Source of the DNA: Streptomyces sp. E2N166
Lineage (GTDB): Bacteria > Actinomycetota > Actinomycetes > Streptomycetales > Streptomycetaceae
Assembly (NCBI RefSeq): GCF_003671715.1
Contig: NZ_RAIF01000006.1
Span: 28,276-65,397 of the forward strand
Length of the DNA: 37,122 bases
Reading direction: 5' to 3'
The notes beneath the pieces were generated by a model that had not been told where the DNA came from, ran no database searches, and saw only the letters and a list, made by a program, of their open reading frames with translations. Of the stretch, positions 1,144 to 11,373 are shown piece after piece (within the stretch, counting starts at the first letter, position 1; each line of letters starts with the position of its first letter). The translations under genes and the position numbers were made by a program.

Positions 1144-1902
1144 ATGCTGGCTGCTGAACGACGCGAGCACCTGCTCGCTCTGCTCGCCCGCACGGGAAAG
1201 ATCGTGGCCAAGGACGTCGCCGCCGACCTGGGCATCTCCGAAGACAGCGTGCGGCGCGACCTGCGCGACCTCGCCGCGGAGGGGCTGTGCCAGAGGGTGT
1301 ACGGCGGCGCGCTGCCCGCGTCGCCCGCGGTGGTGGACTACGACGCGAGGCGGGCGGTGGCCCCGGAGGGCAAACGCAAGGTCGCCGCGGTGGCCGCCGC
1401 ACTGGTGCGGCCGGGCAGTTCGCTGATCCTCGACGGCGGCACCACCGCCCTCGCGGTGGCACAGGCGCTGCCGCAGGAGCTCACCTGCACGGTGATCACA
1501 CACAGCCCGACGATCGCCACGGCTCTGATCGACCACCCGGGGGCGGAGCTATTCCTGCTCGGCGGGCGCGTCTTCAAGCACTCGGCGGTCACCTGCGGTG
1601 CCGCCGCGGTCGAGGCCGCGCAGAACGTCTCCGCCGAGCTGTGCCTGCTCGGCGTCACCGGCGTGCACCCCGAGGCGGGACTGACCACCGCGGACGCCGA
1701 CGAGGCGGCGATGAAACGCGCCCTGGCCGCACGGGCCGCGGACACCTACATCCTCGCCTCCTTCGAGAAGATCGGAACGGCCTCGCCCTACCGCGTCCTG
1801 CCGTGGGAGAAGATCACCGGACTGATCACCGACGCCGATCCCCACGACACGGTCATCGGACGGCTCAGGGCCCTGGGCGTCAAGACCCTCACCGCCGAAT
1901 GA
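1144..1902 (+). CDS. DeoR/GlpR-family transcriptional regulator
   Basis: This 252-aa protein has the full DeoR layout. An N-terminal helix-turn-helix (about residues 20-58, AADLGISEDSVRRDLRDLA, followed by the family hinge RVYGGA) is joined to a sugar-phosphate-isomerase-like sensor domain (LDGGTTALAVAQAL near residue 100, GVTGVHPEAGLTT near 178). The start ATG follows GGAAGGAA with good spacing. DeoR members are usually repressors released by a phosphorylated sugar or nucleoside. Next to a deoxyribosyltransferase-like gene and a Nudix hydrolase, a phosphorylated ribose-type effector is plausible but unproven. Its stop overlaps the next start as ATGA. Confidence 0.93.
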   Translation: MLAAERREHLLALLARTGKIVAKDVAADLGISEDSVRRDLRDLAAEGLCQRVYGGALPASPAVVDYDARRAVAPEGKRKVAAVAAALVRPGSSLILDGGTTALAVAQALPQELTCTVITHSPTIATALIDHPGAELFLLGGRVFKHSAVTCGAAAVEAAQNVSAELCLLGVTGVHPEAGLTTADADEAAMKRALAARAADTYILASFEKIGTASPYRVLPWEKITGLITDADPHDTVIGRLRALGVKTLTAE

Positions 1903-2324
1903 AGAAGCAGCCCAGCAGCAGCCGGCCGCAACAGGACCAGCCGGCCGCAGCCGCCGCTCGCCCCGCACCCGGGGAACCGGAGCACCCCCTCGTCCGCGAC
2001 GTCTTCCCGGACCTCGTCGCCGAACTGACCGCCCTTCTGCAGGACGAGGGGGAGAGCGAACTGGCGGTCTGCGCGCGGGACCTGCGGCTGGTCGAGGAGT
2101 GCGGCTGCGGCGACGGCTTCTGCCAGAGCATCCGGACGGCAGAACATCCGCGGGGGCGGCCCTACGGCCCGGGCCACCGGTGCGTACCTCTCTCGCCCTC
2201 GACGGGCACGCTGATCCTGGACGTCGTGGACGGGCGGATCGTGTACATCGAGGTACTCGACCGGCCGACCCTGCACCGCCTGGAAGAACGGGCTCAGCCG
2301 AAGGGGCCGCCGGCGAAGGCGTAG
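1899..2324 (+). CDS. Hypothetical protein coupled to DeoR regulator
   Basis: This 141-aa protein starts at the ATG of an ATGA overlap with the DeoR stop, so it is translationally coupled. After a Gln/Ala/Pro-rich N-terminus (residues 1-30) comes a compact acidic domain with a Cys cluster (EECGCGDGFCQS, about residues 68-79) and a C-terminal beta-type segment (TGTLILDVVDGRIVYIEVLD). The CGCGDGFC cluster could bind a metal or simply be structural. I do not recognise a named family. Its last 31 bases overlap the tail of the convergent SGNH hydrolase pseudogene. Confidence 0.75.
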   Translation: MKKQPSSSRPQQDQPAAAAARPAPGEPEHPLVRDVFPDLVAELTALLQDEGESELAVCARDLRLVEECGCGDGFCQSIRTAEHPRGRPYGPGHRCVPLSPSTGTLILDVVDGRIVYIEVLDRPTLHRLEERAQPKGPPAKA

Positions 2325-3451
2325 GCGGCGAAGCGCCTACCCATGCGGCGGTACGCGGCGGCGGTGGAGTGGAGGCCGTCGCCCAGGTCGCCCGCCTCGT
2401 GCGGGCCGAGCAGTGTTCGTCCGTCGAGATGGTGGAGGTGGGGATCGGACGCCTGGCGTGCCGCGGCGATCCGGGCCAGCTCGGCACGGACCACCGTATG
2501 CGACAGTGCGCCGCCGGCCACGTCGGCCGGGTCGCCCAGGGCGGCGATCCTCCCGTCCGGTCCCGTCCGGTCCGGTCGCGGCCGGGCCGGGAACCTGCTC
2601 AAGGGCCGGACAGCTCACCGGGGAGATCAGCAGCAGCGGGGTGTCGGGGTGGCCGTCGCGGATCGTGTCCAGGAATCCGTGGAGCGCCGGGCCGAACGTC
2701 CGCAGCCGGAAGGCGGACAGGGCCACGATGTTGATGCCCACCTTGAGGCTGATCAGGTCGGCAGGCATGTCGCGGGTCGTCCGGGCGACGTAGGGGTCCA
2801 GCAGTGCGTTGCCCGCCTGGCTGAGGTTGATCACCTCCGCACCTGCGAGCACGGCCGCCACCACCGACCAGGTCCCGGTCGGGCCGTCGGCCTCGATGCA
2901 GTGGCTGATGGAACTTCCGTGGTGCACCCAGCGGCGCCGCCCGTCCGGCAGCGGTGCCAGCACCTCGCCGTCAGCGCGCAGTGCCACCAGCTCCGTAGGG
3001 GTCTGCTGAGGAAGCCACAGCTCGACGTTCTTCATGCCCCTCGGCAGTCCGGCGACCCGTACGCTCCCGGGCTTGTCCGCAACGAGTCGCTGGACGGCCC
3101 CGGGGCCCGCCATCCGCAGCACGTTGCCCACCGGCGCCTGCCGGCGCCCGGCCAGGGCGCCGTCCACCAGCAACTCGAGCATTCCGGTCGGGCGAGGGCG
3201 GGGGTCGCCGTCGAGCCGGGCGGTGGAGGTGAGTACCTCGAACTCCAGGGTGCGCGCGTCGGTGCGGAACACCAGCCGCACCCCCGAAGGGATCACGTCG
3301 GTCCATGGACCGAGGGGTCCTGGTACTGCTCCTTGGTCCACGCGGGAAACCGGCGCGGCATCACCCCCGCCGGTGTGGTCTCCAGGTCCAGCGCACCCAG
3401 CCACTCCACCGGCCCGCCGACCAGGGGAACCATCCGCATCCTCACCGTCAT
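2294..3451 (-). pseudogene. SGNH/GDSL-type hydrolase, broken by two frameshifts
   Basis: The central reading frame (about 3320 down to 2570) encodes a lipase/esterase-like SGNH hydrolase: RWVHHGSSISHC carries the nucleophile Ser, LISLKVGINI the GxN block, and LLLISPVSCPA the strand before the C-terminus. The catalytic Asp-His block (GDGLHS) lies in another frame at 2294-2602. The two frames would join if one copy of an exact 10-bp tandem duplication at 2551-2570 were removed. At the 5' end a third frame starting at 3451 or 3439 (MRMVPLVGG, WTKEQYQDP) must shift near 3300-3320 to enter the main frame. As read here no full-length protein can be made. Either the gene has decayed or the assembly has indels; the exact duplication favours a real mutation. 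Confidence 0.75.
2551..2570. repeat. Exact 10-bp tandem duplication causing a frameshift
   Basis: TCCCGTCCGG occurs twice back to back (2551-2560 and 2561-2570), followed by TCCGG. Removing one copy gives a continuous minus-strand reading through GPDGRIAALGDP into the catalytic Asp-His block of the SGNH hydrolase. Confidence 0.95.
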
Positions 3452-7002: not shown

Positions 7003-8006
7003 GGCGCTGTTTCTCGGATCTCCTGACTGGGGCGGGGTGTTGGGGTCAGGCTGGCTTCATGAGTCGTGGGGATCTGACGAACGCGGAATGGGCTCGGTTG
7101 GAGTCGTTCTTACCTCCTGGCGGTGCGCGGGGAGGTCGGTGGAGCGATCACCGTCGGGTGATCAACGGAGTGCTCTACCGGGTGCGGACGGGGGTGCAGT
7201 GGCGGGATCTGCCGGAACGGTTCGGCCCCTGGGAGACGGTCTATAAGCGGCATCGCCGCTGGTCAGCGGATGGAACGTGGAGAATGCTGCTGTCTCGCAT
7301 CCAGGCCGCCGAGGATGCCGCGGGCGGGATCGACTGGGACGTGTCAGTGGACTCGACCGCGGTGCGGGCCCATCAGCACGCCGCCGGTGCGAGGAAGGAG
7401 CCGCCGGCCCTGGATGCTCAAAAGGGGAACGGCCGGGGGACGAACCAGGTCGATCCGGTGCTGCGGAAACTGGCCATCCGCCTGGAGGAGGTGGTCAGAT
7501 CGGCGAATGTCTGGGACGCTCCCGCGGTGGATTCACCACCAAAATCCATCTCGCCGCCGACGGACGATGCCGGCCCCTCGCCTTCGTTCTGACACCAGGA
7601 CACTACGGTGACGGCCCGCAGCTCGAGCACGTGCTGGGGCAGATCTCCGTACCCCGATCCGGAGTGGGACGGCCCCGCACCCGGCCCGACCACGTGCTGG
7701 CCGACAAGGCCTACACGTCCCGAAGCAACCGGCGCTACCTGCGACGACGCGGAATCCGGCACACCATCCCCGAACGTCTCGACCAGCAAAGGCACAGGCA
7801 CAACCGAGGATCCCAAGGCGGCCGGCCCACCGGATTCGACCGCGAGCACTACAAGAAGCGCAACACCGTCGAACGTGCCATCAACCGACTCAAGGGCTTC
7901 CGCGCCGTCGCCACCCGCTACGAGAAACGCGCCTACATCTACCTCGGCACCGTCGCCCTCGCAGCCCTCATGGTCTGGCTCCGCACATGATCCGAGAAAC
8001 GGTGCC
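7003..8006 (+). mobile_element. IS5-family insertion sequence with frameshifted transposase
   Basis: This element of about 1.0 kb has 18-bp terminal inverted repeats, GGCGCTGTTTCTCGGATC at 7003-7020 and its near-complement at 7989-8006 (16 of 18 match). It is flanked by TA on both sides (7001-7002, 8007-8008), as expected for IS5-family target duplication. Sharp ends and little divergence suggest recent arrival even though its transposase is broken. Confidence 0.9.
7059..7990 (+). pseudogene. IS5-family DDE transposase, frameshifted
   Basis: The first frame (from the ATG at 7059) runs MSRGDLTNAEWARLESFLPP ... VDSTAVRAH, which carries the first catalytic Asp, up to EEVVRSANVWD. The second frame, ending at 7990, continues as LGRSRGGFTTKIHLAADG ... 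HVLADKAY (second Asp) ... RNTVERAINRLKG (Glu). The protein leaves frame at about 7506-7520, in AATGTCTGGGACGCTCC. One base or 13 bases appear missing. No slippery run lies at this point, so it looks like inactivation rather than programmed frameshifting. The stop codon lies inside the right inverted repeat. Confidence 0.88.
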
Positions 8007-9041: not shown

Positions 9042-9584
9042 GTGGAGAGCGGAGTCAACAAAGCGGCAGCCTGGCTCGGCGTGGTGACCGGGACCATCGC
9101 CATCCTTGCGTTCTTCGGAGTGAACAACTTCGAGGAACTGCAGCGAGCCGTCGCCGACAGCGCACGGTCGGACGATGCACTGTCGGACCCGTGTGAGGCC
9201 CTGCCGGCCGACTACCTCAGCAACTTGCGCGTATCAGGGCCGAAGCATGCGGGAGACGAGTTCCGGCTGGACTGGCCCAAACCGAAGAGCGGGAACCCCT
9301 ACCGCTGGTGGAATTGCGGCTGGCTCGGGCCGAATCCGAAGGTCGGTGAGGGGAATCTCGTCATCGGCTACTCGCAGAACACGAACCCCAGTACGCAGGG
9401 GATGCGACCGATGAACGGCATCCCGGACGCGACGTACGGACCCCAGAACCCGGGATACGACTCCTCGTGCTTTGTCGAATGGCCCATCGCCGACGGCAAG
9501 GGCCAGGCCTCCGTCTGGTACGGAGGCACGTGCTCGGACGCCCGGGCCATCGCCCGCAAAGCATACGAGAAACTCTCCCGCTAG
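9042..9584 (+). CDS. Membrane-anchored extracytoplasmic protein, unknown
   Basis: This 180-aa protein starts at a GTG 3 nt after AGGGGGATT. Residues 9-27 (AWLGVVTGTIAILAFFGVN) form a membrane anchor or uncleaved signal. The rest looks extracytoplasmic, with paired Cys (SDPCEALP, WWNCGWLG, SSCFVEWP, GGTCSDAR) that could form two disulfides. I recognise no named domain, but the C-terminal SDARAIARKAYEKL resembles small secreted lipoprotein-like proteins of actinobacteria (DUF3558-type), a weak resemblance. The TAG stop sits at the left border of the next IS; the reconstructed pre-insertion site would give the same stop. Confidence 0.75.
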   Translation: MESGVNKAAAWLGVVTGTIAILAFFGVNNFEELQRAVADSARSDDALSDPCEALPADYLSNLRVSGPKHAGDEFRLDWPKPKSGNPYRWWNCGWLGPNPKVGEGNLVIGYSQNTNPSTQGMRPMNGIPDATYGPQNPGYDSSCFVEWPIADGKGQASVWYGGTCSDARAIARKAYEKLSR

Positions 9585-9679
9585 AGCCTGTCTGACAATT
9601 CCCGTCCAATCAGCGAGGTTCGGCTGAGTTGGCAATCGGGAGGTGCGCCGACCGTCCGGCGGGGATTACCGGGCAGGGC

Positions 9680-10309
9680 CTACGAACGGCGGGCCAGCAG
9701 ATGGGCGTCGAGGAAGCCCCTTTCGGAGGCTGGATCGTGGAGCAACCGGGCGAAGGGAACGAGCTCGGCGTCGGCCAGCAGTTCGGCCAGGCGATCCGCC
9801 GGCCAGCTGTAGGCAGGCGCCACCTTGTGGTCGAAGCGGACCGGTTCTTGTTCGTCGGTCCCGAAGAAGGAGACCAGGAGCAGGCCATCCGGCGCCAGGA
9901 CGCGTGCCTGCTCGGCGAGCAGCTCCGGCAGTTCTCCCGGAGGAGTGTGGATCATCGAGTAGTGGGCCAGTACGCCGCCGAGCGCGGCGTCCTCGATCGG
10001 CAGGCATTCCATCCGCGCCTCCTGGAAGCGCAGCGCCGGATGGGCCTGCCGGGCGTGGTCGATCATGCCGGGGGCGAGGTCGAGTCCGAAGGCGTCCAGG
10101 CCCAGTTCGTGCAGCATGGCTGTCAGATGTCCGGGACCGCACCCGACGTCCGCTGCCCGCGGGTTGCCCGTCGCGCGCACCAGTTCGGCGAAGGTGCCGA
10201 TCATGGTCCGGGAGAAAGGCTGTGTCTCCAGCCGGTTTGCGAACAGCGATGCGTACAGCTCGACGACTCCGTCGTAGGCCGTCCTGGTCTCGTCCTGATG
10301 ATTCACCAC
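9680..10309 (-). CDS. Class I SAM-dependent methyltransferase (IS passenger)
   Basis: This 209-aa protein has the Rossmann methyltransferase pattern: motif I ADVGCGPGHL (53-62), motif II acidic end FGLDLAPGM (74-82), then MECLPIEDAALGGVLAHYSMIH for motif IV. A C-terminal substrate region follows with RFDHKVAPAYSWPADRL. It is a full-length member of a family common on Streptomyces chromosomes; the substrate is unknown. The start is GTG at 10309 (or the next GTG, 10306). A -10-like TATAGA straddles the internal IS end just upstream, so transcription may originate from the IS. The gene points away from the transposase. Confidence 0.88.
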   Translation of the reverse strand: MVNHQDETRTAYDGVVELYASLFANRLETQPFSRTMIGTFAELVRATGNPRAADVGCGPGHLTAMLHELGLDAFGLDLAPGMIDHARQAHPALRFQEARMECLPIEDAALGGVLAHYSMIHTPPGELPELLAEQARVLAPDGLLLVSFFGTDEQEPVRFDHKVAPAYSWPADRLAELLADAELVPFARLLHDPASERGFLDAHLLARRS

Positions 10310-10322
10310 GGGCAGGACTCTA

Positions 10323-10339
10323 TAGCCGGTCTGATAATT
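10323..10339 (+). repeat. Internal copy of the IS left end
   Basis: TAGCCGGTCTGATAATT matches the outer left end GAGCCTGTCTGACAATT at 14 of 17 positions and is also preceded by TA (10321-10322). It sits 7 bp before the transposase start, where the left end of a normal-size IS would be. Confidence 0.75.
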
Positions 10340-10345
10340 GATCTT

Positions 10346-11237
10346 GTGGTAAGTCGAGGTGAGTTGACGGATGCGGCATGGGGGCGGATAGAGCCCCTTT
10401 TGCCCCAGGTGGACGGACGGGGCCGTCCGTGGCGTGATCACCGGCAGGTGGTCCACGGCGTGCTGTGGCGGCTACGGACCGGGGCTCCTTGGCGCGACCT
10501 GCTCGAGCGGTATGGGCCGTGGCAGACCGTCTACGAGCGGTTCGCCCGCTGGGAGGCCGATGGCACGTGGGCGAAGCTGCTGGAGCATGTCCAGGTCCAT
10601 GATGACGCGGGGGGGGCCGGGTGGAGTGGATCGTCGCCGTTGACTCCACGATCAACCGGGCCCACCAGCACGCCGCGGGCGCCCGTAAAAGGGGGACGCA
10701 GACAGGGACAAACTGGAAGATCCGGGCCGCTCGCAGGCGCATCAGGCACTCGGTCGGTCCCGGGGCGAGCTGACCACCAAGGTTCATCTCGCCGTCGACG
10801 GCCGGGGACTGCCGCTGTCGATCGTGCTCACACCCGGAAACGTCAACGACGCCACCGCGTTCGCCGACGTCCTCGACGGGGTCCGCACCCCGCGCGTCGG
10901 CACGGGCCGCCCGCGCACGACACCGGACCGTGTGCTGGGTGACAAGGCCTACTCCAGCAGGGCCATCCGTCATCTGCTGAAGCGTCGGGGCATCGCCGCC
11001 ACGATCCCCGAGCGCCGCGACCAGGTGGCCAACCGTCGACGCAGGGGGCGCTTCGGTGGCCGGCCACCCGCCTTTGACAGGGAGATCTATCGCGACCGCA
11101 ACATGGTCGAACGATGCTTCGCTCGCCTCAAGCAGTTCCGTGCGATCGCAACTAGGTTCGACAAGCTCGCGGACCGCTACCGCGCGGGAGTCGTCCTAGC
11201 CTCCCTAATTCTCTGGCTCCGCGAAACGGCCAGGTGA
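10346..11237 (+). pseudogene. IS5-family DDE transposase with two frame changes
   Basis: Reading begins at the GTG at 10346 (VVSRGELTDAAWGRIEPLLPQ). At an 8-G run (10609-10616) the frame must shift by -1 to give VEWIVAVDSTINRAHQHAAG (first Asp). At AAAAGGGGG (10687-10695) it must shift -1 again to reach LEDPGRS ... LGRSRGELTTKVHLAVDG ... VLGDKAYS (second Asp) ... RNMVERCFARLKQ (Glu). The second site is a plausible programmed -1 site, as known in the IS427 group. The first is more likely a homopolymer indel (true mutation or sequencing error). If so, the element may be only one base from being functional. Confidence 0.82.
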
Positions 11238-11373
11238 TCATTTGTCAGACAGGCTCTAGCGGAGGCAGGCTTCGCCGGCAGTGCGCAGCGTGGCCGTTCC
11301 GGCTGCCTGGACGACACCTTCCACCGGGGCAACGGCATGGTGGGGTCCGCCGTTGGTGGCGGGAAGAGCGTCC

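Follow-up and report, generated by a model that had tools for sequence, protein, structure and literature searches.

Structure of the unit and its transposase

The window, which is the whole 37,122-nt stretch of Streptomyces sp. E2N166 DNA that we analysed, contains a 1,673-bp unit in which an IS5-type element is joined to a gene for a class I SAM-dependent methyltransferase, so that one left end lies at the outer border, beyond the gene, and a second lies within the unit, between the gene and the IS (Table 1). The unit is present as a single copy in its own genome. A preliminary description of this DNA had reported an element with perfect 15-bp outer inverted repeats next to TA/CTAG, about twice the normal size, with a complete SAM methyltransferase on the opposite strand. 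We find all of these features: the repeats and flanks are as described, the gene is whole and encodes a Methyltransf_25 protein, and relatives that lack the passenger measure about 930 bp, compared to 1,673 bp here. Similarly, the internal left end agrees with the outer left end at 14 of 17 bases (read by eye), and its sequence supports the proposal that it is an old IS left end.

Table 1. Features of the methyltransferase-carrying unit, in window coordinates
Feature	Position	Strand	Remarks
Whole mobile unit: MITE-like left end, methyltransferase and IS5-type element	9584-11256	+	1,673 bp
TA target duplication, left copy	9582-9583	none	CTA/G context; by sequence
Outer left terminal inverted repeat	9584-9598	+	15 bp, identical to the right one
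MITE-type end	9584-9615	+	long-form consensus GGGCCTGTCTGACAATTCCCGTCGGATCAGCG
Spacer from MITE-type end to methyltransferase stop	9616-9679		common to long forms; source not found
Passenger gene, class I SAM-dependent methyltransferase	9680-10309	-	starts with GTG; 209 codons, coordinates include the stop
Predicted hybrid -10 box TATAGAGT	10317-10324	-	IS end plus the captured gene's own DNA; from sequence
CTA, left half of the target of the first IS insertion	10320-10322	+	by sequence
Inner (ancestral) IS left end TAGCCGGTCTGATAA, with CTA before it	10323-10337	+	by sequence
Transposase ORF A, up to the A4G5 motif	10346-10690	+	GTG start; frame disturbed here
AAAAGGGGG at the ORF A/ORF B junction, a presumed site of programmed -1 frameshifting	10687-10695	+	lies where the two frames begin to overlap
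Transposase ORF B, DDE_Tnp_1 domain	10688-11237	+	Pfam
Right terminal inverted repeat	11242-11256	-	15 bp
TA target duplication, right copy	11257-11258	none	by sequence

The perfect inverted repeat at the borders spans 21 nt (9578-9598 and 11242-11262). The element accounts for 15 bp of this, and the remainder comes from its target, CCGCTAGCGG, which is palindromic. Since this palindrome surrounds it, the 2-bp duplication of the window copy is weak evidence. The duplicated bases are TA, inside a CTAG target, in the arrangement CTA-unit-TAG; we conclude that CTAG as a whole is not duplicated, because left ends of relatives that start with A (for example, L033) keep the CTA flank.

The transposase places the element in the IS5 family. 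ORF B matches PF01609 (DDE_Tnp_1) with an E value of 2.7e-14, a homologue on NZ_CP109310.1 is annotated 'IS5 family transposase', and the short (15-bp) inverted repeats and fixed short target duplication (TA) are those of this family. Many copies have two ORFs with the A4G5 motif and some have a single ORF, a layout that may be compared to that of the IS427 group. Excerpts from PMC3281130 and PMC4133298 describe that group of the IS5 family as having two overlapping ORFs, a frameshift motif and TA at the target; by description, our unit may be related to it, with its ORF layout, presumed frameshift motif and TA at the target, and adds a passenger and a hybrid left end. The window copy contains a run of eight G residues at 10609-10616, where the close relatives L052 and L053 have six and L012 has fewer. 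The frame of ORF A is disturbed by this run, and thus the transposase of the window copy is probably defective and would have to be supplied in trans. A second IS5-type transposase region lies about 1.6 kb from the unit, at 7059-7990 of the window; this region is probably multicopy, since contig C54 of the same genome has two places with identical scores against the unit.

Distribution and mobility of the whole unit

The preliminary description had proposed looking for the whole 1.67-kb unit, with both ends, at other sites. In 392 genomes of the genus we found three classes of match, to the full unit, to the IS half only and to the methyltransferase only. Full-length units with 85-98% identity are present in other genomes, and therefore the arrangement is not due to chance. 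The outer left ends also differ in location: no two of the 48 copies that have a credible outer left end share a left flank, and the closest two flanks agree at 57% over 40 nt. (Duplicate records were removed before this comparison; 49 rows passed, and L037 was excluded as spurious, with five mismatches and an end absent from the alignment. The left flank of L084 is just 28 nt.) Thirty of the copies have a right end as well, at 1.6-1.7 kb. TA is present on both sides in 25 of these 30, and by machine count 24 have the arrangement CTA-unit-TAG; L018 and L049 also have it if the repeat is placed one base later, while L013, L019, L041 and L068 do not.

Plasmids of S. platensis and of S. anulatus are 99.8% identical over positions 1503-3177 of the query, have no similarity outside it, and stop matching within about five bases of the unit's ends on either side. 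Five plasmids carry at least 80% of the unit in one place, and phage records gave no match to the unit. When one genome per species was searched with the inner-end pattern GGACYYTATAGCCGGTCYGAT, 39 stretches were found, 38 in Streptomyces and one in Streptomonospora mangrovi. This last copy (L072) is in another family, and its methyltransferase groups with one from Streptomyces griseoflavus.

These observations bear on whether the unit has ever moved whole. Two independent IS events could have bracketed a resident gene, and the palindromic target, by weakening the 2-bp duplication of the window copy as evidence, leaves some room for this. Such an account is contradicted by the 48 different flanks and by the near-identical copies on plasmids of different species, and we give it practically no weight; two separate events bracketing a resident gene may be true of the origin of the unit, but not of the present unit. 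Its telling case, named in the preliminary description, would be the methyltransferase in the same flanks without the IS. We did not see it among the 48 left flanks, nor was an empty target site found for any of three copies: the joined flanks of the window copy had no match across the join in 100 genomes, and those of the G190 and G115 copies had none in 71 genomes each, in searches where scoring was limited to the best few candidates of each genome. Nor did plasmids show an empty site when they were searched with four copies and the DNA flanking them. With a whole methyltransferase in 56 copies, and with 48 different sites, the unit is, on the evidence of its borders and flanks, a real and widespread transporter IS that moves as one 1.67-kb element, and the methyltransferase and IS have since spread together to many species.

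The methyltransferase passenger

The product of the passenger gene matches Pfam Methyltransf_25 (E value 6.7e-17); no NCBIfam model reached its cut-off. It has the Methyltransf_25/11 domain with the GxGxG motif of small-molecule class I enzymes, and the sequence DVGCGPGH is invariant among 17 aligned sequences. Motif IV of DNA methyltransferases is (D/N/S)PP(Y/F), and it is absent from the translation as read by eye; the enzyme does not look like a DNA methyltransferase. The best relative by sequence in the PDB is 3h2b (E value 4.1e-20), which is titled only 'SAM-dependent methyltransferase' and gives no substrate, and an AlphaFold2 model had a mean pLDDT of 54.6, too poor for use.

The passenger gene is generally intact. 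Among 57 element-borne methyltransferase ORFs that could be judged, 56 are whole, each open over exactly 209 codons, and the single damaged gene is L124 (residues 90-209 only). In this count 12 duplicate records were dropped, plus the five partial rows L054, L057, L066, L083 and L124, the first four being genes cut by the edge of the stretch. The 39 stretches with the inner-end pattern, which were not selected by gene length, contain a whole gene in 35 cases, and it is intact in 35 of 35 (12 of these 35 records are shared with the genus search). The median pairwise dN/dS is 0.185 for element-borne methyltransferases (1,403 pairs with dS > 0.05) and 0.224 for methyltransferases without the element (170 pairs). 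Of the copies, 45 extend at least 1.1 kb past the inner end; in 15 of these the right end is missing from its normal distance, yet all 15 retain a whole gene. Since this conserved enzyme often outlives its transposase, the passenger probably matters to the host; most likely it is a small-molecule methyltransferase that is useful to it.

The 56 whole element-borne methyltransferases form one clade with respect to 20 genes without the element, with a support of 100/100 (L015 and L122, in which the inner end is changed, are counted as element-borne). The single clade implies that the gene was probably captured once. The 20 element-free genes (L085-L104) have different neighbourhoods in almost every genome that we read, so the gene seems to move in other ways too: only L092 and L093 have long flanks in common, and L089, L090 and L091 have 58-196 bp in common just upstream. 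The conserved neighbours of these 20 genes name neither a function nor an ancestral locus.

The probable original insertion site of the IS

The inner border of the unit lies immediately upstream of the passenger gene, and only 7 nt separate the predicted box TATAGAGT from the GTG on the minus strand. The preliminary description had noted a -10-like TATAGA at this border; it is present on the minus strand at 10324-10319, and the border does help to form the -10-like box. Element-free methyltransferase genes mostly start with GTG and are preceded by sequences such as TGTTAGCTTCCTTCCC, and element-borne genes mostly have CTATAGAGTCCTGCCC before the GTG. A TAG at -13 to -11 is found in 51 of 56 element-borne genes compared to 8 of 20 other genes; within -15 to -10, TAG occurs in 15 of the 20 element-free genes and the IS target CTAG in three. 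The box TATAGAGT itself is present in 44 of the 56 element-borne genes. Bare relatives of the IS start with GGCCTGTCTGATAA or similar sequences, and the inner end, TAGCCGGTCTGATAA, differs from this start at the bases that form the box.

Judging from the positions of TAG before the GTG, the IS appears to have inserted in the -10 region, with the last bases of its end and the TAG together forming TATAGAGT. This suggests that the IS went into TAG or CTAG in the -10 region of a leaderless gene and built a hybrid box, which, judging from the sequence, would be the promoter element of the passenger. The TAG being off the exact place in 12 of the 20 element-free genes counts against this insertion point.

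The outer left end and its relation to MITEs

The outer-left stretches have CTGACAATTCCnGTCnGATCAGCGAG in common, which differs from both the IS left end (CTGATAATTGATC) and the right end (CTGACAAATGATC). The outer-end pattern (allowing three mismatches) occurs in 24 of the 392 genus genomes, and 20 of these 24 hold long forms, that is, methyltransferase-carrying units. The four without long forms are G335 (15 places), G376 (10 places), G297 and G286. The places that we read in G335, G376 and G286 are MITEs: they are short, have two such ends and are mostly flanked by CTA and TAG; G297 has one MITE-type end only. A shorter outer-end pattern (one mismatch) was found in 16 of 150 genomes, in G082 and G115 only through long forms, and a reversed control pattern had no matches in either the 392 or the 150 genomes. 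In all, we read 27 MITE end pairs with distinct flanks, of 53-296 bp, one of them nested in another (L225). MITEs with IS5-type ends and mostly CTA/TAG flanks are found at L200-L204, L206, L208 and most of L211-L238, and a single genome has as many as 18 pattern matches (G095).

The outer left end resembles these MITEs beyond the 15-bp repeat. The long-form outer-left consensus agrees with a 162-bp MITE of G335 at 30 of 32 bases, but with the best IS left or right end at only 21. At positions 16-25 the mean agreement out of ten is 7.3 for MITE ends, 3.3 for bare left ends and 2.2 for right ends (L037 excluded); because the patterns came from the long form's own end, this likeness is partly by selection, and the comparison is evidence that such a family exists and has this end in common with the unit, but not for how typical the resemblance is. 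What can be said of the family, found with a pattern derived from this end, is that it consists of multicopy, transposase-free elements that are bounded by inverted repeats and use the same target. The 30/32 match to the end of a multicopy MITE makes it most likely that a second mobile element supplied the outer left end.

The preliminary description had the IS landing beside the methyltransferase gene and then moving by means of a distant end-like sequence. The first part is supported by our results: an IS beside the gene captured it. If the second end was a chance sequence beyond the methyltransferase, used once, a single element would be enough, and the outer left end does equal the right end over 15 bp and differ after that. 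A chance sequence does not account for agreement with MITE ends that continues past the repeat (even though the MITEs were chosen by the pattern of this end), for a 30/32 match, or for the silence of the reversed control; we consider this origin very unlikely, and chance is probably not the source of the outer left end.

Alternatively, the unit could be composite in origin, if the gene lay between copies of two related ISs, of which the left copy, with ends reading GTCTGACAATTCCCGTC, lost all but its outer end. An inverted second IS copy would leave an outer left end resembling a right end, as is seen in related units with another passenger (type Y, below), whose outer left ends are near the right ends of the lineage (24-29 of 32 bases in eight copies, compared to 19-24 for bare left ends, with more right ends compared). 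For the methyltransferase unit this seems unlikely, since the bare left and right ends of the lineage reach at most 21 of 32 bases against the MITE-type end. Moreover, a transposase query of 39 loci with MITE-type ends, with flanks of about 1.5-3 kb, matched only L209 and L213, both long forms, and found no IS5 transposase beside the MITEs. The donor of the outer end could also be an unseen autonomous IS with such ends. Taking these comparisons of ends together, capture most likely involved an IS on one side of the gene and a MITE on the other.

A model for capture of the methyltransferase gene

We therefore favour, with a probability of roughly 70%, a transporter IS of the IS5 family in which an IS and a MITE end together captured the methyltransferase and which now moves as a 1.67-kb unit. 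A bare IS of about 930 bp would have entered TAG or CTAG in the -10 region of the leaderless methyltransferase gene, and beyond the gene there would have been a MITE whose terminal repeat had the same 15 bp. The IS transposase would then have paired its own right end with the MITE end and moved everything between, the remainder of the MITE being lost or never included. The inner IS end would have stayed as the promoter border of the passenger, now seldom used as an end, and the methyltransferase may be expressed from the predicted hybrid -10 box, modify a small molecule and benefit the host. No locus with the gene, an intact MITE and the IS was found, and thus we infer the steps in which the MITE lies on the far side and the ends are paired.

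The phylogeny of the transposase does not fit this model simply. Long forms do not come together in the transposase tree, which counts against the explanation: the label 'with methyltransferase' needs four changes there, at least three of them forced, while the methyltransferase tree needs one. ('Short' forms in the transposase tree are those with no methyltransferase, and include the X, Y and Z units described below.) Exchange of the transposase half would be the simplest reading of this conflict, and repeated loss would be another.

Copies starting at the inner end in new flanks were found in one of 392 genomes (L191/L239, at most 291 bases from a contig end), using an exact match in which the fifth flank base before CTA is not G (about three quarters of sites). 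L191 begins at the inner end and is without the methyltransferase, and so the inner end may not be dead; either this end is seldom used or L191 is an assembly artefact.

The conversion of an IS into a gene-carrying transposon is usually inferred without intermediates. In this case the bare IS, candidate donor MITEs, element-free methyltransferase genes and the finished unit occur in one genus, and thus each step is testable. The model also suggests a role for MITEs in gene capture, as suppliers of the second end.

Comparison with known gene-carrying elements

The IS1595 group of ISs includes passenger-carrying examples (transporter ISs, or tISs), and in mobile insertion cassettes (MICs) the ends of an IS carry a non-transposase gene and the transposase is absent. 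Our unit is like the MICs in having IS ends around a non-transposase gene, but differs in having a transposase. MICs of Bacillus cereus are named in excerpts from PMC3129680 and PMC3281130. A tIS, as defined in excerpts from PMC3129680 and PMC9330008, is one IS with outer inverted repeats and a passenger unrelated to transposition, and the same is true here; as compared to the tISs of those excerpts, our unit has retained two left ends, of which the outer is MITE-like, and its relatives hold different modules in the same slot. In TIME-COMPs, genes are mobilised between two Tn3-derived MITEs (excerpts from PMC4133298 and PMC13367494). As there described, the ends of MITEs can be carried about as transposon ends and mobilise the intervening DNA, a likeness to our unit; however, TIME-COMPs have two MITEs, a transposase in trans and a Tn3 origin, whereas here there is one MITE-type end and a transposase-coding IS5-type element, whose right end is that of the IS and not MITE-type. 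Thus the transporter IS is a known kind of element, and the hybrid IS/MITE architecture appears to be new. Titles and abstract openings of openly licensed PMC papers mention neither a methyltransferase-carrying IS5 unit nor these Streptomyces MITEs, which is a weak negative, and the words 'Streptomyces', 'capture' and 'cargo' do not occur in the main text of the MITE review PMC10969869.

Relatives with other passengers

A scan for the start of the transposase (at most two mismatches) found, among the matches listed, 86 places in 61 of the 392 genomes. With sequence for most of these places, and near-identical methyltransferase junctions collapsed, we distinguished 72 junctions: 29 are bare ISs with CTA (including L191), 9 are bare-like without CTA, 16 have the methyltransferase, 9 are of a type Y and 3 of a type X with other ORFs in the slot, and 6 are unclear. 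The slot holds a same-strand ORF, of 109 codons in X, about 105-119 codons in Y and about 148 codons in a possible third type, Z (L040). Modules X, Y and Z match no Pfam family up to an E value of 1 and no NCBIfam model above cut-off. The median dN/dS of X is 0.18 in the sense frame (6 pairs, four copies) and 0.31-2.7 in the other five frames; for Y it is 0.41 (15 pairs, six of ten copies tried) and 0.52-1.6 in the other frames. By this measure the sense frame of both X and Y appears to code for protein.

The outer left ends of these units resemble the right ends of the lineage, with agreement at 26-29 of 32 bases in seven of eight Y copies and at 24 in the eighth (L190), at 25-27 in X and at 27 in Z; the best bare left ends reach 19-24, but the comparison favours right ends because more of them were compared. 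The X, Y and Z units may be captures, or they may represent an earlier state of the IS. With the odds slightly short of even, we put forward that in actinomycetes this IS lineage acts generally as a machine for gene capture. Any end bearing the shared 15-bp repeat would be accepted by the transposase, MITEs and stray right ends dispersed in Streptomyces genomes would be portable second ends, and any gene between such an end and a resident IS would become cargo. Three or more unrelated modules (the methyltransferase, X and Y, perhaps also Z) would thus have come to occupy one slot, and recombination would swap the halves between lineages.

A candidate 2.2-kb passenger unit, L193, was dropped, as it is a single case with an end 2,168 bp away. 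Upstream of the transposase, type X units are found at L106, L110, L118 and L128, and in part at L039/L194. The possible type Z unit is likewise a single case, at L040:2420-2863 on the minus strand; it contains an ORF of 148 codons and has an outer left end of its own. Three IS-like transposase starts (L160, L195 and L196) have a common upstream lipoprotein-like ORF at the border; this ORF may represent another passenger, or the three may have a target site in common. Type Y units are found at L107, L108, L111, L127, L183, L185 and L197, with diverged ones at L175, L177 and L190; their ORF holds ..IDTLCGRL..TTYRLSRFV.., and similar DNA is present on Embleya and Kitasatospora plasmids.
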